Positions 7,061 to 31,551 of a stretch of 64,000 bases of DNA are shown here, piece by piece. Under the pieces are notes generated by a model. The model saw nothing but the letters and a program-made list of their open reading frames with translations. It was not told where the DNA came from and did no database searches. Every line of letters starts with the position of its first letter. Positions within the stretch are counted from its first letter, which is position 1. This DNA comes from Desulfobacula sp. (GTDB lineage Bacteria > Desulfobacterota > Desulfobacteria > Desulfobacterales > Desulfobacteraceae), in assembly GCF_014237455.1 (NCBI RefSeq), contig NZ_JABZFL010000030.1:62001-126000 (forward strand). Direction: 5' to 3'. Both the position numbers and the translations under genes were made by a program.

Positions 7061-7576
7061 CTAAATATTGACTTTTTCCATATTAAAAGAGCGGTAAATG
7101 ATCATTTCCCGCTCTTTTCTGTTTTTATCAAGAGGCTCAAATTCAATGGTTTCAATCAGTTTAAGAGCTTTTTCTTTTGATGGAATCGCATCAAGGCCCT
7201 GTCCTGCTTTTTTCCCGGAAAGCGTATCCAATATCATTGCATCCCTTGCATCCGTTGAAACGGCAAAGGGAATTTGATAGTCATAAATCAGCCTGGCACC
7301 GGCCAGGATTTCTCTTTCATAGGACCCGATAGATCCTGCCACACAGGTAATGGCCATCAATGCCTTTTTTCTGGAATATACAATCAGATCAATGGCTGAA
7401 ATATAGTCCTTGCCTTTAAACTGGACAATCAGTTCTTCATCCACCTTGATATTTTCTTTTGCATATCCTTTTTCATCGACCAGAAATTTTTCAAATATTT
7501 GTCTGCTGGCTTCAGGCCCTACATTTCTTACTGCTTTCCCGGTAATATAATCGGTGATAATATAATCAAAATTCAT
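7061..7576 (-). CDS. Standalone HsdR N-terminal-like (PD-(D/E)xK-fold) domain protein, active site probably degenerate
   Basis: 171 aa; IDLIVYSRKKALMAITCVAGS and AGARLIYDYQIPFAVSTD resemble the HSDR_N family. Confidence 0.65.
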   Translation of the reverse strand: MNFDYIITDYITGKAVRNVGPEASRQIFEKFLVDEKGYAKENIKVDEELIVQFKGKDYISAIDLIVYSRKKALMAITCVAGSIGSYEREILAGARLIYDYQIPFAVSTDARDAMILDTLSGKKAGQGLDAIPSKEKALKLIETIEFEPLDKNRKEREMIIYRSFNMEKVNI

Positions 7577-9126
7577 ATTAAAGATGTCCCTGTCATTTCA
7601 GAAGGTTGTTCAATATTTAATATCTTCAGAACGGTCGGTGCGATATCACCAAGAACGCCGTCCTTTATTGATATATCTTTAAAGTTATTCCCTGCGAGTA
7701 TCAATCTTACGGGGTTCAAGGTGTGGGCGGTGTGAGGGGAACCATCATCTGCAATCATCTGTTCTGAGTTTCCATGATCTGCTGTCACCAATGCGACACC
7801 GCCCGTTTTCCATATCGCCTCAACAACCTTTTGTACACACTTGTCCACGGTTTCACAGCCTTTGATTGCAGCCTCCAAAATTCCTGTGTGCCCGACCATG
7901 TCCATATTGGCAAAATTGAGGATGATAAACTCAAATTCTTCCGACCTGATTTTATCACAAGCTTTTTCTGCCAATCCGAGAGCGCTCATTTGGGGTTTTT
8001 CATCGTAGGTCGCCACATCTCTAGGAGAAGGGATCAGTATTCTTTTTTCTTGATCAAAAACTTTTTCATTACCGCCATTAAAAAAATAGGTCACATGGGC
8101 ATATTTTTCAGTTTCAGCAATTCGAAGCTGGGGGATGTTGTTTTTATTTAATATCTCCCCGAGAATATTATCCAGGTGCTGTGGAGCAAACACCACAGGC
8201 AGATCAAAAGTTTCATCATACTGCGTCATGCAGACGAAACCCGCAAGATCTATCTTCTTTCTTCTGGTAAACTCATTAAACCTAAGTTCTGTAAAGGCCC
8301 TTGTGATTTCCTTTGCCCGATCAGCCCTGAAATTAAAAAAGATAATGCCGTCTCCATCGTCAATGGTACCATTTGGGCCACCCTTTAACGGGTGATTATT
8401 TTTAAGGAAAATAGGTTTGATAAACTCATCGGTCTGATCTGAATCATAGGCGTTTTGTATGGCTTTAACCGAGGTTTGTTCAATCACACCTGCGGCTTTC
8501 GCAAATAGGTTGTATGCCTTTTCAACCCTGTCCCACCGCGTGTCCCGATCCATAGCCCAGTAGCGGCCGACAATGGTGGCAATTTTTCCGTATTTATGAA
8601 TATTCAGATAGTTCTGAAGTTGTTGAGTATAATTAATACCGCTGGTGGGAGAGGTATCCCGGCCGTCAAGTATCGAATGGATAAAAAGGTTTTTTACACC
8701 ATTTTGTCTGGCCATGTCGATCAGGGCAAACAGGTGGGAGATATGACTGTGTACACCCCCGTCTGACAGCAGTCCCATGAGGTGGAGGCTTTTTCCTGAT
8801 TTTGAAACCTGCGCCATGATATCCAAAAGTGCAGGGGTTTTAAAAAAGGATTTGTCTTTAATGGCTTGATTTATTCTTACAAAATTTTGTAACACTTTTC
8901 GGCCCGCACCGATATTCATGTGACCGACTTCTGAGTTGCCCATGGTTCCGTCGGGAAGGCCGACTGCACTGCCTGAGCACTGAAGCTTGCAGTTTGGAAA
9001 ATTTTTTAACAGAGAATCCAGAAAGGGAGTGTTGGCTATCGCAAAGGCATTCCCTTGTTTTTCATTATTAATACCCCATCCGTCAAGAATTATTAAAATG
9101 TTGACAGGGTACGATTTAGAACTCAT
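7573..9126 (-). CDS. gpmI: 2,3-bisphosphoglycerate-independent phosphoglycerate mutase
   Basis: ILDGWGIN, MGNSEVGHMNIGAGR, DGRDT, TADHGNSEQM; start placed at MSSKSYPVN rather than the extended track start. Confidence 0.95.
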   Translation of the reverse strand: MSSKSYPVNILIILDGWGINNEKQGNAFAIANTPFLDSLLKNFPNCKLQCSGSAVGLPDGTMGNSEVGHMNIGAGRKVLQNFVRINQAIKDKSFFKTPALLDIMAQVSKSGKSLHLMGLLSDGGVHSHISHLFALIDMARQNGVKNLFIHSILDGRDTSPTSGINYTQQLQNYLNIHKYGKIATIVGRYWAMDRDTRWDRVEKAYNLFAKAAGVIEQTSVKAIQNAYDSDQTDEFIKPIFLKNNHPLKGGPNGTIDDGDGIIFFNFRADRAKEITRAFTELRFNEFTRRKKIDLAGFVCMTQYDETFDLPVVFAPQHLDNILGEILNKNNIPQLRIAETEKYAHVTYFFNGGNEKVFDQEKRILIPSPRDVATYDEKPQMSALGLAEKACDKIRSEEFEFIILNFANMDMVGHTGILEAAIKGCETVDKCVQKVVEAIWKTGGVALVTADHGNSEQMIADDGSPHTAHTLNPVRLILAGNNFKDISIKDGVLGDIAPTVLKILNIEQPSEMTGTSLI

Positions 9127-9514
9127 CATCGTTCTCCTCGGATTCGTATGCCGCTTCAAATTCTGAAAGATCAATTCTTGAGGCATCAGCCCACAGCCCT
9201 TCAAGATCATAAAAGGATTTTGTTTCGGATTTAAAAATATGGATGATAACTTCCCCATAATCAAGCAATACCCACTCGCCGGCTTTTACGCCTTCAATAC
9301 CAACGGCCTTTATTTCTTGGGTTTTTAAACTTTTAATCAGATGTTCGGCAATGGATGTTACCTGGCGTTGGGAGTTCCCTTCAATAATAACAAGGGTATC
9401 CGTATAAGAAGTAAGTTGTTTTACATCAATGGCGATAATTGATTTTGCCTTTCTCTCAAATGCAGGGACCAGGTATTTTTTAAGCTCATCTTTTATCGTG
9501 ACAGAATTTTTCAT
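9116..9514 (-). CDS. rsfS: Ribosomal silencing factor RsfS
   Basis: VLLDYGEVIIHIFKSETKSFYDLEGLWADA signature; adjacent to nadD. Confidence 0.93.
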   Translation of the reverse strand: MKNSVTIKDELKKYLVPAFERKAKSIIAIDVKQLTSYTDTLVIIEGNSQRQVTSIAEHLIKSLKTQEIKAVGIEGVKAGEWVLLDYGEVIIHIFKSETKSFYDLEGLWADASRIDLSEFEAAYESEENDDEF

Positions 9515-10158
9515 TTATAGAGTTCCTTTGTTCTAATAATTTTTTCGACATTTTCAGGCACAAGATCCTTTATGGATTCGTTATTTTTTATCCGTGCCCG
9601 GATCATGGTGGATGAAATATCTATTTTGGGGACCTTGCAAATTATTATTTTCTGTTTCTTTTTATGGGAAAAAGTATTGTTCTGTCCATTAAAAATGTAC
9701 CCCTTTGATATGTTTTCGTCAATAAAAGAGGCAATGGCATTATTGTTTTCCCAATGTCCTCTCAACATGATGATAATACGGACAGCCTCAAATATTTGAT
9801 CTTTATGTTTCCAGGTTTTAATATCTAAAAATGCATCAGATCCCATTAAAAGAAAAAAATGGGTCTGTTCGCCATATTCTTTTTTAAATTCATTGATGGT
9901 GTCAATGGTAAAGGAAGGGCCTTTTCTTATTAATTCTTTGTCTGATACCAGAAAATTCTTATGATTTTTCAAACTTACTTTTACCATTTCAAACCTGTCT
10001 TTGGCTGGGGCAAGATTGATATGGGGTTTGTGGGGCGGTGTTGCAGAAGGAATTAAAAATATTTTTCCCAACCCACATTTTTTTTTGACATGCTGAATAA
10101 TACTAATGTGGCCATTGTGAAAAGGATTAAAAGTTCCGCCAAAAAGTCCGGCATTCAT
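9511..10158 (-). CDS. nadD: Nicotinate-nucleotide adenylyltransferase
   Basis: GLFGGTFNPFHNGH nucleotidyltransferase motif, DISSTMIR. Confidence 0.95.
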   Translation of the reverse strand: MNAGLFGGTFNPFHNGHISIIQHVKKKCGLGKIFLIPSATPPHKPHINLAPAKDRFEMVKVSLKNHKNFLVSDKELIRKGPSFTIDTINEFKKEYGEQTHFFLLMGSDAFLDIKTWKHKDQIFEAVRIIIMLRGHWENNNAIASFIDENISKGYIFNGQNNTFSHKKKQKIIICKVPKIDISSTMIRARIKNNESIKDLVPENVEKIIRTKELYK

Positions 10159-11156
10159 TTTTTACTCTTTTTAAGCTCAGAAGATAAAAGTTTAATGAGT
10201 TCTTTTACCCCTTTACCCGTTGCTGCTGAAAGAGTCAACACCCGGATGTTTTTTAAAGCGTTTTTAAATGCTTCAACCTTTTCTTGCGTGTCCGGCAAGT
10301 CAATCTTGTTAAGTGCGACAATCTGAGTTTTTTTTGCCAGTGTTTGACTGTATTTGGCCAACTCATTGTTTATCAGGTTAAAAGAGCTGAGAGGGGATGC
10401 AGGATCTATCTGGAAAGAATCAATCAGATGAACCAGGATTCCGGTTCTTTCAATATGTTTTAAAAAACTGATGCCCAGTCCGGTTCCTTCATGGGCACCC
10501 TCAATCAAGCCCGGGATATCTGCCACTGCAAAGGGTTCTCCAAAAGGCGGGTCTACCATCCCAAGGATAGGGGTCAGTGTTGTAAAAGGATAATCAGCTA
10601 TTTTGGGTCGGGCCGCAGATATGCTGCTGATAAGTGTTGATTTTCCTGCGTTGGGCAAACCAACAAGTCCGACATCGGCAAGAAGCTTTAATTCCAGCTT
10701 AAGTTTCAGTTCAATCCCGGGAATCCCGGGTTGAGAGTGCCTGGGCGACCGGTTGGTAGAGCTTGCAAACCGTTTATTGCCCCGTCCGCCCATGCCGCCA
10801 TGGGCAAGAATATATTCATCCTCAGTGTCGGTCAGGTCGATAATGATTTCGTTGGTGTCTTCGTTGGTAACAATGGTTCCCGGGGGAAGGGCGATGGTGC
10901 AGTTTGAGCCGTTCTTGCCATGTTTTTGTTTTCCCTGGCCGGGCTGGCCGTTTTTGGCCTTGAGCAATTTCTGCCGGCGATAATCAAAGAGTGTTCGTTT
11001 GCTCCGATCGATTTTCAGTATAACATTGCCACCGTCGCCACCGTCGCCACCATCAGGTCCTCCTCTTTCAATGTAACGTTCCCGCCGGAAGCTTGTGCAT
11101 CCACGGCCGCCGTCACCGGACTTGACAGTGATAATTGCTTCATCTACAAATTTCAC
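10155..11156 (-). CDS. obg: GTPase Obg/CgtA
   Basis: Gly-rich N-terminus, [28 protein letters not shown]. Confidence 0.97.
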
Positions 11157-17694: not shown

Positions 17695-18714
17695 TTACTC
17701 CTTTTTATCCAATGGCTTATCCACCGGCAGGCCGGCTTCAACCATTTTTTCTCTGAAGTGATCCTCATACTGTGCATAGGTATGGGTTTCCACGTCATAG
17801 TTCCAGGGATTAATATGTCTTTTTGCACGGGTATTATTTGCCATATTCCTTGTGGGGCTTAAAAATATTCCGCCCATATGCATGAGTTTGCTGGCCGGGA
17901 AATATGCAAAAAGGATACTTACCAGAAAGAGATGGCCATAAAAAAGACCGCCAACACCTTCAGGAATTGTCGGGCTGAAGGTTGCAAGACCCATGGCAAG
18001 GGTTTTAATGCCGATAATGTCAACCTTTGTAAAATATCTCATGGCTAAACCGGTTGCTGCAATCCCGATAATAAGGAATAACGGGAAGTAATCAGCTGCC
18101 TGGGAGATGTAGGTAACCTTGGCATCAAAGATTCTTCTTGCAAGCAGGAATAGTGTTGCTGCAAGCAATACAACACCGGATAACATGATTCCGGGAAGTC
18201 CCAGCTGTACGATGCCATCAATATATTCTAAAAATTTGATACAGGAGGGTACAGGGGAGGTAAAAAATCTGAAATGCCTTAACAATGTTACCAAAAAGGC
18301 ATAATGAAAGGCAAGGGCGCCTAACCAGAGGAAAATTTCCCAGGAGTAGGATAGCCTGTTTGAAACATTTCTGTTGAACGCTGCTTTTGTGTTTCTGAAC
18401 AGAGACCTGAAAAGAAAAATTTCAAGAATCATGCGCACAAACACACCTGTTGAAGTATTAGGGTTGTCAATGGTATTCTGTTTTATCCATGGTAGAGATT
18501 TCTGTTGCCCGCAGGTTGTCGGAATTCTGAACGGGACAGCAGAAGATGCCCATCCCAGAACTTTGTATACAAAACCGGCAAGGAAGGCAATAATCGCTAC
18601 ATAGGGAAAAACAATTCCGAAGAACCACTGAAGCCCTGCTCCCTCAACACCTGTGTATGCTATTAAAAAAAGCAGAAAAACAGCTGTCAGGGGGATCAAG
18701 TACTTTTGATTCAT
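17695..18714 (-). CDS. dsrM: DsrM, NarI-like membrane cytochrome b subunit
   Basis: Polytopic His-containing protein (FHYAFLVTLLRHFRFF) heading the dsrMKJOP order. Confidence 0.94.
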   Translation of the reverse strand: MNQKYLIPLTAVFLLFLIAYTGVEGAGLQWFFGIVFPYVAIIAFLAGFVYKVLGWASSAVPFRIPTTCGQQKSLPWIKQNTIDNPNTSTGVFVRMILEIFLFRSLFRNTKAAFNRNVSNRLSYSWEIFLWLGALAFHYAFLVTLLRHFRFFTSPVPSCIKFLEYIDGIVQLGLPGIMLSGVVLLAATLFLLARRIFDAKVTYISQAADYFPLFLIIGIAATGLAMRYFTKVDIIGIKTLAMGLATFSPTIPEGVGGLFYGHLFLVSILFAYFPASKLMHMGGIFLSPTRNMANNTRAKRHINPWNYDVETHTYAQYEDHFREKMVEAGLPVDKPLDKKE

Positions 18715-18768: not shown

Positions 18769-19284
18769 TTAAGATTTTTTCGAGCCAAGGAGATCCTCTT
18801 CCGTTAGCTCAGTTACTAAACCCGCCCTTTCAAAAGCCCTGTGAATGCGTCTTTTGCTCTCAGTTGCTTTTAAAAGGAATATTTCTTCTTTACATTTCAT
18901 AAGCTTGTTGAATGCCGCCAGCGCAATTTCATCGACAAGCTTGTCAAATTCTCTGATCAGGCTGTCATCAAGGATATCTTCGCCAATTTTCTTTAAAGAA
19001 AAAACAAAACTGACAGCCTCGGAAGCACAAAATGCCTGTACCGCCCTGATACGGATGATCGGATCAAGCGTCTTTTCAAGTATTTCCCGGTTGAAATCGC
19101 CTATAATAAGATTAAAAACGTCTTCAATGGTTTCATGGGTGACAGCACCGACAGGGTTGTCAAAGCGGTTGGAGTCTTTGCCCAGTACTTTTGCACTTTG
19201 TGCGGGATATGTATTAATTGTTGCCTGGAACCATTTTTTTATAAATAGCTTCTTATTTTTTGTAAGTATTTGTTTTAAATGCAT
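18769..19284 (-). CDS. RsbRD N-terminal-like domain protein upstream of dsrM
   Basis: 171 aa helical protein (KKWFQATINTYPAQSAKVL...), co-oriented and 54 bp upstream of dsrM. Confidence 0.7.
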   Translation of the reverse strand: MHLKQILTKNKKLFIKKWFQATINTYPAQSAKVLGKDSNRFDNPVGAVTHETIEDVFNLIIGDFNREILEKTLDPIIRIRAVQAFCASEAVSFVFSLKKIGEDILDDSLIREFDKLVDEIALAAFNKLMKCKEEIFLLKATESKRRIHRAFERAGLVTELTEEDLLGSKKS

Positions 19285-20169: not shown

Positions 20170-21639
20170 ATGCTTGAAGGTGTGCCCCCCGGGATGCTGG
20201 GGGTATTGACAGGTTTGGTTTTTATAATTGTTTTTATTGTAAGATTTTTAATAGTCAAAAAAGTTGTTCTTAAGTCACCCTTAATAGATCAGGCAAAAAA
20301 ACAATTTTTCAGTGAATACGGATTGGTATTATCTGCCGGTGTTTTAATGGTTTTTCTGGACCATTTTATTTTGTCCATACCATTTGTTAACGGGGTGGTA
20401 TTTTTTATCGGGTTTATCGCGTTTGGATTTTTTATCGCAATAGATATGTCGTTGCAAAAAGAGAGAAGTGTGATTAAAAATGCTATGGAGAATTCCGATG
20501 TCATCAAGGTTCCCCAACAATTTTACCCCTTAACCCGGAAGTTTTTTATTGTAGCCCTTGTGACCAATCTATTGGTCATGATTATCATCATGCTGATCAT
20601 AGGAAGAGATCTTGCGTGGCTGGGGGCTATGGATCCGGCTCAGATGAATATCATGCTAGGAATGACGACCAAGACTATTTTTAAAGAAATTTCTTTTGTT
20701 ATTTTTATTCTTTTAATACTGGTGATCAATATTTTATACTCATACTCAAGAAATCTTAAGTTGCTTTTCCAGACGGAAACCGGCATTCTGGAATCCGTGA
20801 GTAACGGTGATCTTTCAAAGCTTGTTCCAGTTGCAACCAGCGATGAATTCGGTGTAATTGCTACCCATACCAACAAAATGATTCATGGATTACGGGACAG
20901 AATAAGGATGCTGACACGGCTGAATGTTGCAAAAGTGGTACAGGAAAATCTTTTGCCGAACAATGCCCCGGATTTTCAGAATTTGGAAATTTCAGGTATC
21001 AGTTTGTATTGTGAAGAAGTGGGGGGGGATTATTTTGATTATTTTAAATTCTCCGAAAACAAGATTGGCATTGCTTTGACGGATTCGTCCGGACACGGTG
21101 TGGGTGCGGGGCTCGATATGACAACCATAAGAGCGTATCTTCGGTATGGTGTTGAGGATTATAAGGGGCCTGCACAGCTTATTGCCTCTGTTAACAGGCA
21201 TCTTGCAAGGGATAGCTATGAAACCGGCCGGTTTACCACTGTTTTTTTTGTAGAGATCGATCAGGGAAAGAGGGGAATCAAATGGGTCCGGGCAGGACAC
21301 GAACCCGCGCTGTTTTTTACACCCGGGTCAAAAAAAGTTCAAAGACTGCTTGGCAATGGAATGGCCTTGGGGGTTGATGCGGATGCAAAAATTGATGAAT
21401 ATGAAATTTGCGGGTGGGAAAAAGGCTCTGTCCTGGCGATTGTGTCTGACGGACTCAAAGAGTCCAGAAATTCACAGGGTGAGATGTACACAGAAAAAAG
21501 AATTACCAGCACAATAGCAGAAAATGTGGCGCAATCAGCCAAAACCATTGAGAAAAAACTGCTGGAAGATATTAATGCTTTCCGGGGCGATGTCCCAATA
21601 GCTGATGATATCACTATTGTGATTGTTAAATTTTTTTAA
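20170..21639 (+). CDS. Membrane-bound HAMP-domain SpoIIE/PP2C-type serine phosphatase
   Basis: N-terminal TM segments, HAMP-like linker, GGDYFDYF...LTDSSGHGVGAGLDMTTIR, RAGHEPALFF, VSDGLKES. Confidence 0.9.
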   Translation: MLEGVPPGMLGVLTGLVFIIVFIVRFLIVKKVVLKSPLIDQAKKQFFSEYGLVLSAGVLMVFLDHFILSIPFVNGVVFFIGFIAFGFFIAIDMSLQKERSVIKNAMENSDVIKVPQQFYPLTRKFFIVALVTNLLVMIIIMLIIGRDLAWLGAMDPAQMNIMLGMTTKTIFKEISFVIFILLILVINILYSYSRNLKLLFQTETGILESVSNGDLSKLVPVATSDEFGVIATHTNKMIHGLRDRIRMLTRLNVAKVVQENLLPNNAPDFQNLEISGISLYCEEVGGDYFDYFKFSENKIGIALTDSSGHGVGAGLDMTTIRAYLRYGVEDYKGPAQLIASVNRHLARDSYETGRFTTVFFVEIDQGKRGIKWVRAGHEPALFFTPGSKKVQRLLGNGMALGVDADAKIDEYEICGWEKGSVLAIVSDGLKESRNSQGEMYTEKRITSTIAENVAQSAKTIEKKLLEDINAFRGDVPIADDITIVIVKFF

Positions 21640-21670: not shown

Positions 21671-24202
21671 ATGGCTTTGAAAACAAAAACAGACAAAACA
21701 GAAATACCGATTACAAAAAGGTCCCTGACATCGTGGATTTTTGATGGAAATATAAAACTTCAGATATTGCTTGTGGCAATTATTCTGGTTACGGTTGCTA
21801 TCAGGGTGGTTCCCCTTGAAATGCAAAAACGGATTGTCAATGAGGCAATAAATTTACGGAAACTGGATCTTCTGATCATTTATAGTGGAATTTATCTTGC
21901 TGCGGTTGTTCTGGCATCGCTTTTTAAACTTGCAATTAATATAATCCAAACAAAAATCAGTCAAAAAGCTACGGCTGAAATGCGAAAGCAATTATATCAT
22001 CATATTTTGAATATGCCGTTGAACTTTTTCAGAAATACCCAGCCTGGTACGGTGGTTAATTCTTTGATTAACGAATTGACTATCCCGGGAAATTTTGTGG
22101 GTATGGCAGTGGCAGTGCCGTTAACCAATGTGGTGACACTTCTGGCTTTTTTCGGTTACCTGCTTGTATTGAATCCGATACTGGCTATTATTTCATTTTC
22201 CATATATCCTGCAATGCTCTATGTCATTCCGGTGCTCCAGAAACGTGTTAACCGGGACAACAAAAAAAGAGTGAATGCATCCCGGGAATTATCATCCAAC
22301 ATTGTCGAGTCTATTTCCGGTATCCACGAGGTTCAGGCTAACGGTGCTTTTGAAATTGAGAACACTAAATTTGATACCATTGTTGATTATCTGAGAAAAA
22401 TCCGAATAAAATGGAGTATTTATAAATTCGCTATTAAGGTTTCCAGCAATTTTTTTATTAACCTGGGGCCGTTTTTGATTTTTATTGTCGGCGGATATCT
22501 GGCGATTAAGGGACAATTGGGGTTGGGTGCACTGGTGGCGTTTTTGTCTGCCCAGGAGAAATTGTATGATCCTTGGAAAGAGCTTATCGAATTCTATCAG
22601 GTATATCAGGATGGAAAAATAAATTATTACAAAACCATGAATTATTTTGATGTTGAAATTGAGCATGAGCTCGCTCCAAAGGACAGGGAACCTTTTGAAT
22701 TGGATGTTTCCATCAATGTTGAAAAGATGGGCCTGGAAACAAAAGAAGGCATAAAATTGCTTGATGATATCAATCTTCATATAGCTCCGGGAGAACATAT
22801 CGCACTGGTGGGGTTTTCAGGAAGCGGGAAAAGTTCGCTGGCCTTATGCCTGGCACAGCTTTACAAATACACATCGGGTCATGCAACTATCGGAACCAAA
22901 GAAATTTCCAAACTCACCAAAGCCGATATGACAAAAAATATGGGCCTGGTTTCGCAGTCTCCATTTATATTTGCCGGTACCATCAAAGAGAATCTCATGT
23001 ATTCCTATACAGCACTTCATGGTGAAGAATGCGTACTTGAAGGAGAGTGCAAACCGGAACTGGATGGGCTTGTTCACGTGCTTCAACAGTCCGGGTTGTT
23101 TGTAGATGTTTTAAGATTCGGATTGAATACAATTATTGAAGGGACTGCTGAGGAGTTTATTCCTGTTATCATTAAGATGAGGGAAAATTTCCAAAAAGAA
23201 TTTGGAGATTCGATTGGCGAATGGGTAGAATTTTTTGATGAAAAGCAATTCCTTTCTTATGCGGGCATTGCTGATAACATTATTTTTGGTGCACCGATTT
23301 CCGAGGAATTTAAAAATTATAAATTGACAGAAAACCCTTTCTTTTTAAAATTTATGGATGATGCAGATTTGACAAGGCCACTTTTGTCTTTGGGAAAAGA
23401 AATCGCAGATCAGACAGTGGATATTTTGAAAAATATTACCCATGATAAAATGTTTTTTGAGCAGACTCCTATCAAACTGGAAGAGTTTGAACAATATGAA
23501 AATATTGTTATACAGACAAAAAATAAAAATCTTCACCAGATAAACAAAGAACAGAAAACAGAACTTCTGGAACTGGCATTACGGTTTTCCCCCGGAAAAC
23601 ACAGGATTGCAACCATTCCTGAATTTTTAATCAATCTAATCCTTGAAGGCAGATACATGTTCCGAGAGAAGATTATGCAAAAAAATCCGCATGCCATAGC
23701 ATTTTTCAAAAACGACCAATATATTCATTCCCAGACGATATTTAATAATATTCTTTTTGGTATTGTCAAAACAACAAATCCAAGAGCCCAGGAAAAAATA
23801 AATCAATTCATGATCGCTCTTTTGATTGGAGAGGATTTTCTTGAAAAAATGATTGAGATCGGTATGAATTTTAAGGTGGGTACCAAAGGCAACAGGCTTT
23901 CCGGCGGGCAGCAGCAGAAACTTGCCATTGCCAGAACCTTTTTAAAATCACCACCGATTATGATTCTGGATGAAGCAACCTCAGCCCTTGATAATAATTC
24001 TCAAAAAAGAATCCAGAGTGTACTTTCCCGACATTGGAAAGGGAAAAGTACGTTGATCGCTGTTGTTCACCGGCTTGATATTGTTAAGGAATATGACAAG
24101 GTTGTTTTTTTGAAGGCCGGTAAAATTGTAGAAATGGGGACCTATGATGAACTGATGGCAAAAAAGGGGTATTTTTATGAACTCGGGTATAAACAAAAAT
24201 GA
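21671..24202 (+). CDS. ABC exporter (TMD-NBD fusion) with a large insertion in the nucleotide-binding domain
   Basis: Walker A GFSGSGKSS, SQSPFIFAGTIKEN, signature LSGGQQQKLAIARTF, Walker B IMILDEATSALD; about 300 aa between Q-loop region and signature. Confidence 0.9.
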   Translation: MALKTKTDKTEIPITKRSLTSWIFDGNIKLQILLVAIILVTVAIRVVPLEMQKRIVNEAINLRKLDLLIIYSGIYLAAVVLASLFKLAINIIQTKISQKATAEMRKQLYHHILNMPLNFFRNTQPGTVVNSLINELTIPGNFVGMAVAVPLTNVVTLLAFFGYLLVLNPILAIISFSIYPAMLYVIPVLQKRVNRDNKKRVNASRELSSNIVESISGIHEVQANGAFEIENTKFDTIVDYLRKIRIKWSIYKFAIKVSSNFFINLGPFLIFIVGGYLAIKGQLGLGALVAFLSAQEKLYDPWKELIEFYQVYQDGKINYYKTMNYFDVEIEHELAPKDREPFELDVSINVEKMGLETKEGIKLLDDINLHIAPGEHIALVGFSGSGKSSLALCLAQLYKYTSGHATIGTKEISKLTKADMTKNMGLVSQSPFIFAGTIKENLMYSYTALHGEECVLEGECKPELDGLVHVLQQSGLFVDVLRFGLNTIIEGTAEEFIPVIIKMRENFQKEFGDSIGEWVEFFDEKQFLSYAGIADNIIFGAPISEEFKNYKLTENPFFLKFMDDADLTRPLLSLGKEIADQTVDILKNITHDKMFFEQTPIKLEEFEQYENIVIQTKNKNLHQINKEQKTELLELALRFSPGKHRIATIPEFLINLILEGRYMFREKIMQKNPHAIAFFKNDQYIHSQTIFNNILFGIVKTTNPRAQEKINQFMIALLIGEDFLEKMIEIGMNFKVGTKGNRLSGGQQQKLAIARTFLKSPPIMILDEATSALDNNSQKRIQSVLSRHWKGKSTLIAVVHRLDIVKEYDKVVFLKAGKIVEMGTYDELMAKKGYFYELGYKQK

Positions 24203-24753: not shown

Positions 24754-25200
24754 ATGGGAAAAGTTAATTTATCCATAAAATTAAAAAATCGTTTGAATGA
24801 TTTGGACAGGATCAAAAAGGCTGTTTCAAAAATGTCCCCCTCCATCGACTGTACCAAGCGGAAATTTCAAGAAATAAATTTGATTATTGAAGAGTTGTTC
24901 ACAAACGTGGTGTGTCATGGATTCAACGATGATAAAGAACATGATATTGATTTGTATTTAACCTGTGATGAGAAGTTATTGATAATTCGTATGGAAGATG
25001 ACGGGAAGCCTTTTGATATTACAGCCGCATCCGCACCTGATACAAAATGTGCCATTGAGAAACGATTTGTCGGTGGTCTGGGAATTCACTTTGTAAAATA
25101 TTTTGCAGACGATTGTAAATATTATCGTAAAAAGGGTAAAAATATAATTGTGCTCAAAAAGTATATAACAAAGAATGAACAGGTAAATGTCGAATCTTGA
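24754..25200 (+). CDS. Anti-sigma regulatory factor-like HATPase (RsbW/SpoIIAB family)
   Basis: EINLIIEELFTNVVCHGF N-box, MEDDGKPFDI, GGLGIHFVK. Confidence 0.88.
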   Translation: MGKVNLSIKLKNRLNDLDRIKKAVSKMSPSIDCTKRKFQEINLIIEELFTNVVCHGFNDDKEHDIDLYLTCDEKLLIIRMEDDGKPFDITAASAPDTKCAIEKRFVGGLGIHFVKYFADDCKYYRKKGKNIIVLKKYITKNEQVNVES

Positions 25201-25231: not shown

Positions 25232-25564
25232 ATGAAAATTTTCCAGGAAAATAATAACGGGATAGAAATATTTAGTGTGAAGGGCAGTCTTGATTCCAAC
25301 ACATCAACAGAATTTGAAACTCGGATATATGCTGCTCTTGAAAGTGGTCAACGTAAACTGATTCTCAATTTGGAAGATCTGGATTATATCTCAAGTGCCG
25401 GTATAAGAGTGATGTTGAAAACGACAAAGGATCTCAATCGTATGGATGGGAATATCGTACTTTGTACATTGCAGGATTATGTGAGAGAAGTCTTTGATAT
25501 AGCCGGCTTTGACGGGTACCTGAATATTGAAAACAACCTAAAGGCAGCAATGGATAATATTTGA
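25232..25564 (+). CDS. STAS-domain anti-sigma factor antagonist
   Basis: KLILNLEDLDYISSAGIRVMLKTTKDL (phosphoacceptor Ser motif). Confidence 0.93.
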   Translation: MKIFQENNNGIEIFSVKGSLDSNTSTEFETRIYAALESGQRKLILNLEDLDYISSAGIRVMLKTTKDLNRMDGNIVLCTLQDYVREVFDIAGFDGYLNIENNLKAAMDNI

Positions 25565-25566
25565 AA

Positions 25567-25944
25567 TTAAGGTTCTTTAATCCCGATCAACCCTTTCTCT
25601 CCCAATGATCGCAAAAAAAGTGTAACGGAAATTTCAGCCTCTTTATAGTTCAAGCTATGGCGGACCGCAAATTCTTTGATAATCGTTTTAACATTTTTTT
25701 CTCCGTCTAAAAGAGACCAGACATCAACTCCTAACCCGTCAAGCTGTATTTTCCTTGTGAATGTATTTTTTTGGTTTCGGCCGACTATTTTTTGTATCCT
25801 TAAAAAAAATGGCTTATACATGGCCTGATATGTAAGAATCAAATCACCTGAATCCAGAAAGTTTTCTTTAACCGTTGTGTTTTTTTCAGGAACGCACAAG
25901 AGGGCATCATTTTTTTTAAGACCGCTTTTTTTTTTAAATGTCAC
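25567..25944 (-). CDS. PqqD-like protein
   Basis: IQLDGLGVDVWSLLDGEKNVKTIIKEFAVRHSLNYKEAEISVTLFLRSLGEKGLI. Confidence 0.8.
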   Translation of the reverse strand: MTFKKKSGLKKNDALLCVPEKNTTVKENFLDSGDLILTYQAMYKPFFLRIQKIVGRNQKNTFTRKIQLDGLGVDVWSLLDGEKNVKTIIKEFAVRHSLNYKEAEISVTLFLRSLGEKGLIGIKEP

Positions 25945-26827
25945 CGATAATAGACTCTTTTATTAAATCGTGTTTAAATTTTTTCCGGGAATCAACCATA
26001 ACACCGATAATTCTATTGCTTGTTTTCTCCTGGCATATTCTAAAAACTATGTAGCGTGAGTAACGGTTAAGGAAGGGCAGGGTATGGCTGTTTTTTAAAA
26101 TACCCTGCCGATAATTCCATTGAAAACAATCGCCATATTTACAAACACCTGATTTTGCAAATCCTTGGAGCTGGCTGAGCCGTTGGGTAGCAAATGTTGT
26201 GAGATTCGTTTTTGACAGCAAAAATAATGCAGGCCCCCAACTGAAAATAGTCAGTTTTGTTTTTTTGTGATCAAAATTTAAAATATAGCAGCCGGGTTTA
26301 AAACTATAGTCCGTCATGTTAAACCTGTGCGGTGTTGAAAAATGCAACCCAAATACTCGCCAGTATATGTGATCATCGTTTGAATGGTCTTTATATGATA
26401 GTAGAATTGACTTTTGCAACGCGTCAAATGTTTTTGATTTTGAAAAAAATCGTATCAAAGAAAGTTTTTTACAATGAGAGCAGAAAATAAGTGAACCCCT
26501 ACCGGAGGAAGAGGCGCTTTCCCATGAAAAAAAGAAAAATTCAAGATCCTGGTTGGTTTGTTTAAAAGAACCGGGTGCCGGACGCTCATAAATTTTAATT
26601 TTAATTTTTTTTTGTATTTGGGCTATAAAGTTTTTTAAGTATTTTTCAAGGGTGAATTTTTCCGGAGAATCAGTCCATTTTATTTCCATTCGTGGCTGGG
26701 TATCTTCACCTATAATGACATGGTCCTTATCAAGACTGTCAATTTCCCAACTCATTGGTAGTCTGAGCGAGATGCTATTCCAGGCAAATTTTTTCTGTAA
26801 AAATTCCTCTTGGCTATGCATTAACAA
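25934..26827 (-). CDS. Hypothetical protein
   Basis: 297 aa ORF co-oriented and overlapping its neighbour; no family recognised. Confidence 0.6.
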   Translation of the reverse strand: MLMHSQEEFLQKKFAWNSISLRLPMSWEIDSLDKDHVIIGEDTQPRMEIKWTDSPEKFTLEKYLKNFIAQIQKKIKIKIYERPAPGSFKQTNQDLEFFFFSWESASSSGRGSLIFCSHCKKLSLIRFFSKSKTFDALQKSILLSYKDHSNDDHIYWRVFGLHFSTPHRFNMTDYSFKPGCYILNFDHKKTKLTIFSWGPALFLLSKTNLTTFATQRLSQLQGFAKSGVCKYGDCFQWNYRQGILKNSHTLPFLNRYSRYIVFRICQEKTSNRIIGVMVDSRKKFKHDLIKESIIGDI

Positions 26828-27526: not shown

Positions 27527-29488
27527 TTAAAAAGCAGTACTTCCAAGAGATTTTAATATGAGCGTAAGACCCATTGCAAACATGCCGGTAAGTCCCATTC
27601 CGCATGAAAAGCCTGCCAGCAGGACCGGTGCATATTGACGCCATTGTTTTCCATATCGTTTCAGAAAAAAGAACCGGCCCAGAAGTGCACCGAGAACTTC
27701 TAAAATAAGACCATGGGGAGTGCTTTGGCCAAGCCCCCGGACAATACCGTAAATTAAGAGAATTGGTAATCCAAAAAAAGTGAGAATTGCATAAGTGATG
27801 ACACCAAAACCCATGCCTGAGAAAACGACATTCCCATTTAATGCCTGGTAAAAAAGAGAGTTGCCTTCCATGGTTGAGGATTGCATTAATAGTGTATTTA
27901 ATGCCTGAAGGTGCCATAGTTCCTGGGCATAGGGGTAACTGCTGGACGGGATGGGAGCCAGCCGCCAGATGAATTGTGAAAAAAGCAGGCTTGCAATCAT
28001 TACAACCGGGAAAACAATAAATTCTGCTTTGATCACACCTCTCAGGCTTGTCCCGGTCAGTTCAATTTGTCTGAAATTTACAGTTGCTTCACCATAATTA
28101 TGGATGGGGATCGGTGCATACCAAATCTCAATTCCCTGATATCCGAAATATTTTGCCCCGGCTATGAAACTTGCTTCCCGAACCAAAGGAAGACTGACAA
28201 ATTGTCCGGCAATTCCTTCCATCCTGGCAGTGATATAGGAAATGACCGGGGTATAGACAAATCCGTAAATAAGGAAAAAAATCCATGGAAAGGTAGGAAC
28301 TAAAATGGTACACAGCACCACATAGGAAAGGGTCGAAAATATATAAATGGCAATGGCAATCCTGAAATCAAAATCTCCCCTGCCCGGGGGAGGGTTGAAA
28401 AGGTCTTTTAAACTGCCTCTTTCCATGTTTGAAGACCCTTTAAAGGACTTAATGACCTGCCACAACCCGATCAGTCCGATGGAAAGTCCAAGCCCGATAC
28501 CAAAGCTCATATAAAAATCAAAATTGTTGGCAAAAATAGTTTCAACAGTTCCCATGCCCTGGTGCCAGCTATGAAGGATTCCATTTTGATACAGCATCGG
28601 GTTGACAATGATGGTAATTAAAAGTCCGATAAGTCCGCCGATTACAGCCCAGAAAGGAAGAACCATACCCAGAAAGATCAGTCCGAGATCAAGCTGAATA
28701 CCGGTTGCAACTGCCGGAAGGATACCTTCGGTATGTCTTGTCAGCTCAACCCAGGGGATGGGAATCAGTCGAATAGGTTCGGTAAAAATAAGGCCCGAAA
28801 CTGCCGGAAGGAGAATATAAACTGCTCCAAACGCAAGCCCGATGACACCGCCAATGGAAAAGACCCGCCATTTCCAGCTTTTGATCTTTTCATCTCTGGA
28901 TTCTGCCAGGGCAATGGTCCCCAGTGCTCCCACCGGTGCCATGGGAAAGGGCAATTTTTCAACATCGGAAGTGATCCGAAACAATGCATACCCCAAACCA
29001 AACTGATCTATTCTCTGGATGACTTGTGAACCGACCAAGAGAAGAATGGGAATTAACCAGTCCTGGTGAAAAAAGGTTCTTTCCAGAATCGCAATCGATT
29101 CGGGTTGGGGTGCTATCCATGATGGTATAAATTCTGTCAAACCAAGCATCCTGGCGGCATCGGATTGAACCAGGTATTGATTCCATAAAAGCCCTTGAAA
29201 AGGTGATGCCATTGCTGCACCGGCCATATAATAAAGAAGAAATATTTCCTGCTGTTTTAAGTCGGAATACGCCCTTTTTGCAATTTCTGCAAAAAGGATA
29301 ATGGTCACCCATCTTGCGGCTGGACCAATCCCTGTGCCGATGACCAGCTGAAGATACATGCTTCCCGGCATCATGAGAAAACCGATAAAAATGGCACCCA
29401 CAATAGTCTTCCAGTTAAACCCTTCTTCGAAATGATCGGGTGGTTTTAAAAGATCGCGGTATTCTTTCAGCTCTTTATCATCATACAT
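27527..29488 (-). CDS. Large polytopic membrane protein, OPT/DUF6785-like
   Basis: 653 aa, many TM segments, OPT-like layout. Confidence 0.7.
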   Translation of the reverse strand: MYDDKELKEYRDLLKPPDHFEEGFNWKTIVGAIFIGFLMMPGSMYLQLVIGTGIGPAARWVTIILFAEIAKRAYSDLKQQEIFLLYYMAGAAMASPFQGLLWNQYLVQSDAARMLGLTEFIPSWIAPQPESIAILERTFFHQDWLIPILLLVGSQVIQRIDQFGLGYALFRITSDVEKLPFPMAPVGALGTIALAESRDEKIKSWKWRVFSIGGVIGLAFGAVYILLPAVSGLIFTEPIRLIPIPWVELTRHTEGILPAVATGIQLDLGLIFLGMVLPFWAVIGGLIGLLITIIVNPMLYQNGILHSWHQGMGTVETIFANNFDFYMSFGIGLGLSIGLIGLWQVIKSFKGSSNMERGSLKDLFNPPPGRGDFDFRIAIAIYIFSTLSYVVLCTILVPTFPWIFFLIYGFVYTPVISYITARMEGIAGQFVSLPLVREASFIAGAKYFGYQGIEIWYAPIPIHNYGEATVNFRQIELTGTSLRGVIKAEFIVFPVVMIASLLFSQFIWRLAPIPSSSYPYAQELWHLQALNTLLMQSSTMEGNSLFYQALNGNVVFSGMGFGVITYAILTFFGLPILLIYGIVRGLGQSTPHGLILEVLGALLGRFFFLKRYGKQWRQYAPVLLAGFSCGMGLTGMFAMGLTLILKSLGSTAF

Positions 29489-29523: not shown

Positions 29524-31551
29524 TTATGTCGGTAGTACCTGGTATCCATATTCAGTGAAAAATCCAATAATGGCCCATGTCCCGCCTATGAGAAAATCAC
29601 CCATAATCAGTCCCACAAAGAAATACCGCATTTTTTTAAATAAGATCACTCCGCCATACCGCATACATAATGTATTAAATATCCATCCGATGAAAAAGCT
29701 CAACCAGAGAATTTTCATGGCTGAACTGTAAACCATCAGATACCCGATGGGATGAAGAGGCCACCAGTAAAACCGGTGGTAGCAAATCACGAGGATGCCC
29801 ATTACAACCGCACCTGCGGCTGCAAATAATTTGATGGAATCTCCCTGTTCAATACTGTTTTGCAGGAGGGGGAAAAGATTGTTATACATGGACACGGTTG
29901 TTCGGGTTGCCCAGTCAAGCTGGAGTTCTCTTATCCCGTACCGGTAGCAGAGCAATATCATGGCAATGGCAGAAACCAGAAGGCAAAGGAACATGGCCAC
30001 CAAAATAGCCAATGCAATTTTTCCCTGTCCACTAGCATGTCGGGTTACCCTTCTTGTGTGCAGGATGGACGGTGCCACAGACTCTCTTAAATCTACAAAC
30101 AGTATTTTTTGACTGATCCCGGCTAAGACCAGTGCCACACTGGAAAATATTTTCAGACCCAAAATGGTATTAACGGCATCCAGCGGAGCAACCGTCAATG
30201 TAAAGTATGTGACGCCTCCTTGACAGATCACCCGGGTGGCAACCATTGTAAATAAAATAAAAAAAGTGATTAAAATAATGCTTTGAAAAATAGAGACACC
30301 ATGAAAGGAAAACCAGATGACAAGTGTTATAAATCCGAAACTGGTTCCCCAGAATGCAAGTTTATCATCCATATGGTTTGAATTATTATCACTCTGGCCA
30401 AATCCGAGTGCATTTTTTGTCATTTTAATAAAATGAAATCTGGCTAACCAGATCAGGAATATTGCAAAAACAATAAATGCACCAATCATCTGGGTTTCTT
30501 CAGGACTTGCCAGCGTTGGACCAAATGTTGTGCCAAGTTCTGATGCGGGAAAACTGTATCCTGTGACAGACAAAACACCCGTGAAAAAAGCACCCAGTAT
30601 GAAAAAAAACCAGAAAGAAAATGATACCTGTTTTGATGCTAAAAACGCAAAACCGATAAAGGCCGGATAAAGGTATAATTTAAGCTTGATAAATCCCGTC
30701 AGGATGCCTTGTTTGGGAAAATAAGGGCCAGCAAGAATCAAGGTGTTAATGTGTGGGAACGAGGGAAAATAAAAATTCAACCCGTTCAGGAGATGAAGAC
30801 AAATCGGAATTCCAAGTCCGATTAATAAAAATTTATTCCCAAAGAAAGAAGACAATTTGTCTTGGTCAAGCGCACTTTGTATCATTTTCGGTACGATCAA
30901 AAGTGGAAAATTCATCCGCTCATTTTCCATGGCCTGCCGGGTAATCATATGAATGAGGCAGAGAATTAAAAAATAGCAGATGAATATAAAAATTCCCCAG
31001 GACAAAAATGGCACTGCCCATGTGTGCCAGGGGACCTTGGAGGTAAGTTCCAGCCACCCCATGTCCTGTCCACCGTCAATACCGTTGTAAAGCATTTCAA
31101 TGGCTTTGCCATCCTGGGGGAAAAGGTTTTTGGGTAGAAACGGGTGAAGAACTTCCTGCCATCGGTTTTCCACACTGGCAAAATAGTATGGTGCGGTCAG
31201 GTTGATGAAAAATGTCCTGGCAAACCCGGTATAGGCAATCCCTGAGACGAGAATCATCAGGCCCCATGTAAAAAGAAGTTCAGTCCCTGAAAGAAGGGTT
31301 TGGACCTTAAACAGTTTTCGGGCCAAAGCAGTGATAATCGTTAACCAGAATAAAAGGTAAAAGGGTGCCAGAGGAAAGTACCCGCCACCCAGAGGCGTTG
31401 CATTCCGATAGACATTATTAAAAGGTGTCAGGGCACAAATCAACACTGCAAGGAAAATTGCAATAATGTATGCCCGGGGCCTGATGGCAACCCATTTTTT
31501 TTTAGTTTCAGGCAATATTTGTTTTCTTCTCCTTATATTCTTCCTTTTCAT
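29524..31551 (-). CDS. Large polytopic membrane protein, DUF6785/DUF6784-like
   Basis: 675 aa, many TM segments; ends next to the previous gene. Confidence 0.7.
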   Translation of the reverse strand: MKRKNIRRRKQILPETKKKWVAIRPRAYIIAIFLAVLICALTPFNNVYRNATPLGGGYFPLAPFYLLFWLTIITALARKLFKVQTLLSGTELLFTWGLMILVSGIAYTGFARTFFINLTAPYYFASVENRWQEVLHPFLPKNLFPQDGKAIEMLYNGIDGGQDMGWLELTSKVPWHTWAVPFLSWGIFIFICYFLILCLIHMITRQAMENERMNFPLLIVPKMIQSALDQDKLSSFFGNKFLLIGLGIPICLHLLNGLNFYFPSFPHINTLILAGPYFPKQGILTGFIKLKLYLYPAFIGFAFLASKQVSFSFWFFFILGAFFTGVLSVTGYSFPASELGTTFGPTLASPEETQMIGAFIVFAIFLIWLARFHFIKMTKNALGFGQSDNNSNHMDDKLAFWGTSFGFITLVIWFSFHGVSIFQSIILITFFILFTMVATRVICQGGVTYFTLTVAPLDAVNTILGLKIFSSVALVLAGISQKILFVDLRESVAPSILHTRRVTRHASGQGKIALAILVAMFLCLLVSAIAMILLCYRYGIRELQLDWATRTTVSMYNNLFPLLQNSIEQGDSIKLFAAAGAVVMGILVICYHRFYWWPLHPIGYLMVYSSAMKILWLSFFIGWIFNTLCMRYGGVILFKKMRYFFVGLIMGDFLIGGTWAIIGFFTEYGYQVLPT

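Follow-up and report, generated by a model that had tools for sequence, protein, structure and literature searches.

An ABC exporter encoded in Desulfobacula sp. carries an unusually expanded NBD, in which the stretch that follows the Q-loop, made up of a TxxxNxxxG motif and helices, is shown by family profiles to be present three times in tandem. The resulting insert is conserved across groups of two phyla, the Desulfobacterota and the Alphaproteobacteria, and the family that carries it is linked or fused, nearly constantly, to a CNB-domain protein. The family appears to be an undescribed variant of the type IV ABC exporters and not a new kind of machine.

The gene lies in a window of 64,000 nucleotides, the whole stretch of DNA analysed here (Table 1). 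Its 843-residue product matched PF00664 (ABC_membrane; 7.5e-36, 124.7 bits) and, in two separate stretches, PF00005 (NBD; 3e-27, 96.3 bits). The best structural match of the full AlphaFold2 model was TM287/288 (6quz_B, Foldseek E 1e-20), with other type IV exporters matching too. By this match and by the fusion of a TMD to an NBD, the protein is one half of a type IV ABC exporter, and ATP-driven transport by a dimer is predicted. None of the 25 NCBIfam models listed for it scored at or above its own cut-off; the best, MsbA (TIGR02203), gave 314.8 bits for a cut-off of 602. The preliminary description, made from the sequence alone, had read the Walker A, signature and Walker B motifs as intact, and all three were located together with the Q-loop and the H-loop. 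The five motifs are equally intact in the Desulfobacterota relatives.

Table 1. Features of the exporter gene and its neighbours (positions in the window; residues of the 843-aa protein).
Feature	Residues	Position	Strand	Basis
Membrane SpoIIE/PP2C phosphatase with MASE10, upstream, less constant		20170..21639	+	Pfam
ABC exporter half-transporter, 843 aa, TMD then insert-interrupted NBD		21671..24202	+	Pfam, Foldseek
Transmembrane domain	53-294	21827..22552	+	PF00664; helices in model
Walker A GFSGSGKSS	381-389	22811..22837	+	
Unit 1: Q-loop strand, strap GTIKENLMYS, helices	424-486	22940..23128	+	profiles
Q-loop Gln	429	22955-22957	+	
Long helix after unit 1, invariant Arg504	491-515	23141..23215	+	model secondary structure, alignment
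Unit 2: strand EFF, strap AGIADNIIFG, helices; invariant Asn536	519-586	23225..23428	+	profiles, model
Spacer helices between units 2 and 3	593-638	23447..23584	+	model; gap in unit 1-unit 2 alignment
Long helix before unit 3, invariant Arg661	651-671	23621..23683	+	profile comparison, alignment
Unit 3: strand AFF, strap QTIFNNILFG, helices; invariant Asn693	676-732	23696..23866	+	profiles
Signature LSGGQ	743-747	23897..23911	+	
Walker B IMILDE (MILDE from 764)	763-768	23957..23974	+	
H-loop His (VVHR from 798)	800	24068..24070	+	
CNB-domain protein, stand-alone, 176 aa		24177..24707	+	Pfam PF00027
HATPase_c_2 (RsbW-like) protein, common neighbour in Desulfobacterota		24754..25200	+	Pfam
STAS-domain protein, anti-sigma-factor-antagonist type, common neighbour in Desulfobacterota		25232..25564	+	Pfam

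The distance from the Q-loop to the signature is usually about 50–60 residues, a value that is typical though not strictly defining, and it was 52–56 in six ordinary ABC proteins taken from the fetched loci. In the window protein, Gln429 and LSGGQ are 313 residues apart, in line with the roughly 300 first estimated, and the span ranges from 308 to 447 residues across the 105 Desulfobacterota rows of the alignment. An insertion of about 250 residues had been proposed, and this is indeed the excess; it holds two further units of the helical subdomain. The inserted segment alone has no Pfam match and holds no second Walker A or signature, so that extra nucleotide-binding sites were rejected, and with them the idea of intercalated partial NBDs in that sense. 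The other proposal, an internal duplication of the helical subdomain, is borne out, with three units in place of one.

The strap motifs AGIADN and QTIFNN begin at 23261 and 23732, where they had been reported. Within the single sequence, copies 2 and 3 are significantly alike, as only 2 of 2000 shuffles reach their score, and copy 1 is indistinguishable from chance when compared with the others in the same shuffle test. Family profiles of the three segments (R1, residues 421–500; R2, 512–600; R3, 672–745) align pairwise and in register in hhalign: R1 with R2 at 94.2% (E 1.1e-7), R1 with R3 at 96.0% (E 4.4e-9), and R2 with R3 at 97.4% (E 1.2e-11). The scores of the unit pairs were 40–58, against at most 23 for the controls, in which profiles were reversed or taken from elsewhere in the protein. 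The comparison of residues 486–600 with 645–745 was stronger (98.4%, E 4.4e-15, 84 columns), and on these profiles the two long helices are homologous, each preceding a unit (unit 2 and unit 3, respectively). The spacer helices have no counterpart in the other units. When aligned with the profiles of ordinary NBDs, unit 3, which leads into the LSGGQ signature, reached 99.7%, unit 1 96.7%, and unit 2 58.5% (E 1e-4), the last with its strap motif in register.

Every unit has a strap of the TxxxNxxxG type, Asn followed by Gly. The strap residues Asn441, Asn536 and Asn693, together with Arg504 and Arg661, show no variation in any of the 113 rows of the alignment (105 from Desulfobacterota and eight from Alphaproteobacteria, some of them one locus fetched twice), and the strap Gly is mostly invariant in each unit. 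One homologue (locus L028, 631–3468, minus strand) has a run of short, near-identical repeats (CVDLGN) inserted immediately behind the first strap, and more repeats ahead of unit 3; large insertions are thus tolerated in the inter-unit linkers.

Structure prediction, which the preliminary description had proposed as a check, gave a confidently folded insert. The AlphaFold2 model, computed from an alignment of 67 sequences, has a mean pLDDT of 82.5; its weak parts are in the membrane domain, and the insert is mostly at about 80–94. The same elements recur along the insert, namely a strand, a short strap helix, helices and a long helix, and the fragment 486–682 is predicted to fold on its own (pLDDT 90.6). 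In Foldseek this fragment had no match in the PDB (best E 0.41), and because of this the identification of the insert as helical subdomain rests on the profiles and on the order of the elements. We read the insert as a probable tandem amplification of a crossover module that would extend from the Q-loop strand to the Walker B strand. The element order also suggests that the two long helices correspond to the LSGGQ helix and the strands EFFDE and AFFKN to Walker B. Neither assignment was retained, as profile comparison supports neither the former (probability 0.2–1.2%) nor the latter.

The insert was matched in 17–18 of 58 genomes, mostly of the same genus, family and order, and no match contained a stop codon. 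A scan with one genome per species returned 80 loci, with 37–84% identity over the insert; judging by record titles nearly all belong to Desulfobacterota, and one is labelled Aminicenantes. The frequency in a wider Desulfobacterota sample was 21 of 297 genomes. Distribution outside this phylum was sampled on plasmids only, where 249 records matched the insert, with the best identities at about 22–25% and a coverage of at least 80% in 240 of the 249; the genera among the matches listed were all alphaproteobacterial, mostly Rhizobium and Sinorhizobium. In a quick tree built from the core with the insert removed, the first eight Alphaproteobacteria to be read formed one clade (SH-aLRT 100), and the whole family was separate from three canonical exporters; the tree has long branches and a weak root.

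Chance or artefact, with the motifs being look-alikes in a frameshifted gene or in an insertion that is disordered and specific to one lineage, could draw on copy 1 not reaching significance within the single sequence. This explanation is refuted by the present results and is scarcely credible. The profile similarities are significant when set against the controls, pLDDT is high in the full model as well as in the fragment, and every relative listed has a stop-free frame, which rules out a gene fusion or a frameshift. High pLDDT and the homologues in both phyla equally rule out a disordered or lineage-specific insert, so that both doubts raised in the preliminary description, dissimilar repeats and lineage-specific disorder, are removed.

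In the records and papers searched, members of the family are named only generically, e.g., ‘ABC transporter ATP-binding protein’, and our literature searches found no description of the tripled-subdomain architecture. SMb20813 of Sinorhizobium meliloti, which we guess to be a candidate for the family gene, appears in one paper solely as an MsbA homologue. The homologue on pSymB of S. meliloti 1021 (8001–10713 of locus L145) is one base longer than that of strain 2011 (L146), and its open frame has 805 codons versus 922; because of the extra base and the shorter frame, the gene looks disrupted in the record of strain 1021.

The two phyla differ in their catalytic residues. The Walker A Lys, the Q-loop Gln (Gln429 in the window protein) and the Walker B Asp-Glu are present in all 105 Desulfobacterota rows, and the H-loop His is missing from a single row, which is gapped. 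In the alphaproteobacterial proteins read (Rhizobium, Mesorhizobium, Sinorhizobium, Phyllobacterium, Allorhizobium, Shinella, Azospirillum, Ruegeria, Sulfitobacter and UR115), the residues of ATP catalysis are wholly or partly lost, most of them being replaced; UR115 retains the Walker A Lys and a Glu. Since all of these proteins are plasmid-borne, chromosomal members may differ. No active partner gene for the impaired members was found in the loci read. Despite the catalytic loss, the sampled alphaproteobacterial members keep all three units and the CNB partner. Such persistence would also suit a purely structural function, in which the extra units would hold the NBD dimer stable or at a set spacing, or keep it from closing fully, so that ATPase activity is slow or one-way and no dedicated ligand is involved, and the invariant strap Asn and mostly invariant Gly of each unit are what a structural element predicts. 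We hold this to be decidedly unlikely, as it leaves the near-constant CNB partner and the CNB fusions unexplained.

The CNB open reading frame of the window overlaps the end of the exporter gene by 26 bp, and its product matched PF00027 in Pfam with no match to a DNA-binding domain. The exporter frame has a CNB frame directly behind it, in most cases with an overlap, at 108 of the 116 loci scanned (duplicates included), and in three more, from UR115 (L140), Ruegeria (L141) and Sulfitobacter (L142), the CNB domain is fused to the exporter C-terminus; of the five exceptions, two run into the end of their locus and two are one place counted twice. A fourth fusion was seen in Azospirillum (L147). 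The preliminary description had asked whether the insertion is conserved next to the cNMP and SpoIIE genes: the former proved to be the most constant neighbour, and the latter is less constant. The CNB protein of the window does not fit the phosphate-binding cassette (Glu and Arg-Ser) of cAMP-binding, CRP-like proteins; the position of the cAMP-contacting Glu is Val in this protein and mostly Gly or Ala in Desulfobacterota, which makes cAMP or cGMP an unlikely ligand there. The partners in rhizobia and UR115 retain the canonical GE...RTA pattern. In Rhizobium sp. CC-CFT758, a gene with an adenylate/guanylate cyclase domain (7505–8708 of locus L151) lies close to the CNB gene.

In most Desulfobacterota loci, the HATPase_c_2 and STAS genes follow downstream, and beyond these the opposite strand often carries a PqqD-like gene together with an unnamed gene and genes for two large membrane proteins. 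As genomic context, the nearby partner-switching genes (HATPase, STAS and SpoIIE) hint at a stress- or signal-controlled operon. The minus strand of the window encodes the small PqqD-like protein (25567–25944) and a 297-residue protein with no Pfam or NCBIfam match (25934–26827), a pair conserved beside the operon in many Desulfobacterota loci. Farther 3' are two large membrane proteins, one with no Pfam family (27527–29488, minus strand) and one with DUF6785/DUF6784 (29524–31551, minus strand), both likewise conserved in many Desulfobacterota. An RsbRD_N-domain protein (18769–19284, minus strand), adjoined by a nitrate-reductase-gamma-like membrane protein (17695–18714, minus strand), may be another partner-switching element near the SpoIIE, HATPase and STAS genes.

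In rhizobia, Shinella and Sulfitobacter, the exporter gene is found among glycosyltransferases and polysaccharide deacetylases. The rhizobial and Sulfitobacter loci speak for the extra units being a recognition domain specific for a substrate or partner, such as a glycan, a lipid-linked substrate or a biosynthetic enzyme, with the CNB protein acting elsewhere, and inserts of the UvrA type between Walker A and signature are generally known to bind partners. We nevertheless judge a recognition domain unlikely, as the nearly universal linked gene is CNB and not a glycan gene, and the conserved Desulfobacterota neighbours that could be identified are signalling or membrane proteins and not glycan enzymes.

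The type IV exporters TM287/288, MsbA and TmrAB share with the window protein the TMD fold, the NBD motifs and the domain order, and lack its extra residues. Proteins of the UvrA and SMC/Rad50 type have large inserts in the equivalent topological position, between Walker A and the signature; these inserts are zinc- or UvrB-binding domains or coiled coils and do not repeat the helical subdomain, and their bearers are not membrane exporters. Coupling of a CNB domain to an exporter is seen in HetC of Nostoc PCC 7120, a CNB-C39 peptidase-ABC protein, whose N-terminal CNB domain is required for exporter function and binds ppGpp in vitro (PMC10986499). This precedent makes CNB regulation of an ABC exporter plausible. 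Unlike HetC, the window family has its CNB domain as a separate gene or at the C-terminus, the window protein and the scanned homologues have no Pfam match to a C39 peptidase domain, and the helical subdomain is tripled. The catalytic loss of the alphaproteobacterial members resembles that of degenerate-site exporters such as MsRv1273c/72c (PMC12038006); the known examples of that type have a single impaired site within a heterodimer, whereas the alphaproteobacterial chain has lost most motifs.

On balance we lean towards a family of ABC exporters under CNB regulation, with the amplified helical subdomain providing a platform for docking or regulation. The crossover module, with its strap and helices, would have been amplified in tandem to three copies. 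Two Desulfobacterota chains would pair as an ATP-driven homodimeric exporter, the extra units would sit next to the NBD as the platform on which the CNB protein docks, and NBD closure or transport would be gated by whatever ligand or partner the CNB domain senses. The alphaproteobacterial members would be pseudo-ATPases built on the same platform, acting as non-hydrolytic regulatory or scaffold proteins or pairing with a separate active partner. A bolder version, with the amplified subdomain as a new ABC signalling platform for coupling a CNB sensor to an exporter and with an alphaproteobacterial pseudo-ABC transporter that works without ATP hydrolysis, is tentative and seems to us rather doubtful; if true, the latter would act as a channel, flippase or scaffold under CNB control.

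In ABC transporters, it is through the helical subdomain that ATP use is linked to the membrane portion. As three copies persist after the loss of the ATPase residues, this subdomain can evidently be amplified and re-used, and the retention of the units in such relatives points to a regulatory or scaffold role. The family, which is present in the genetically tractable S. meliloti, offers a natural test of the role of the helical subdomain apart from catalysis.
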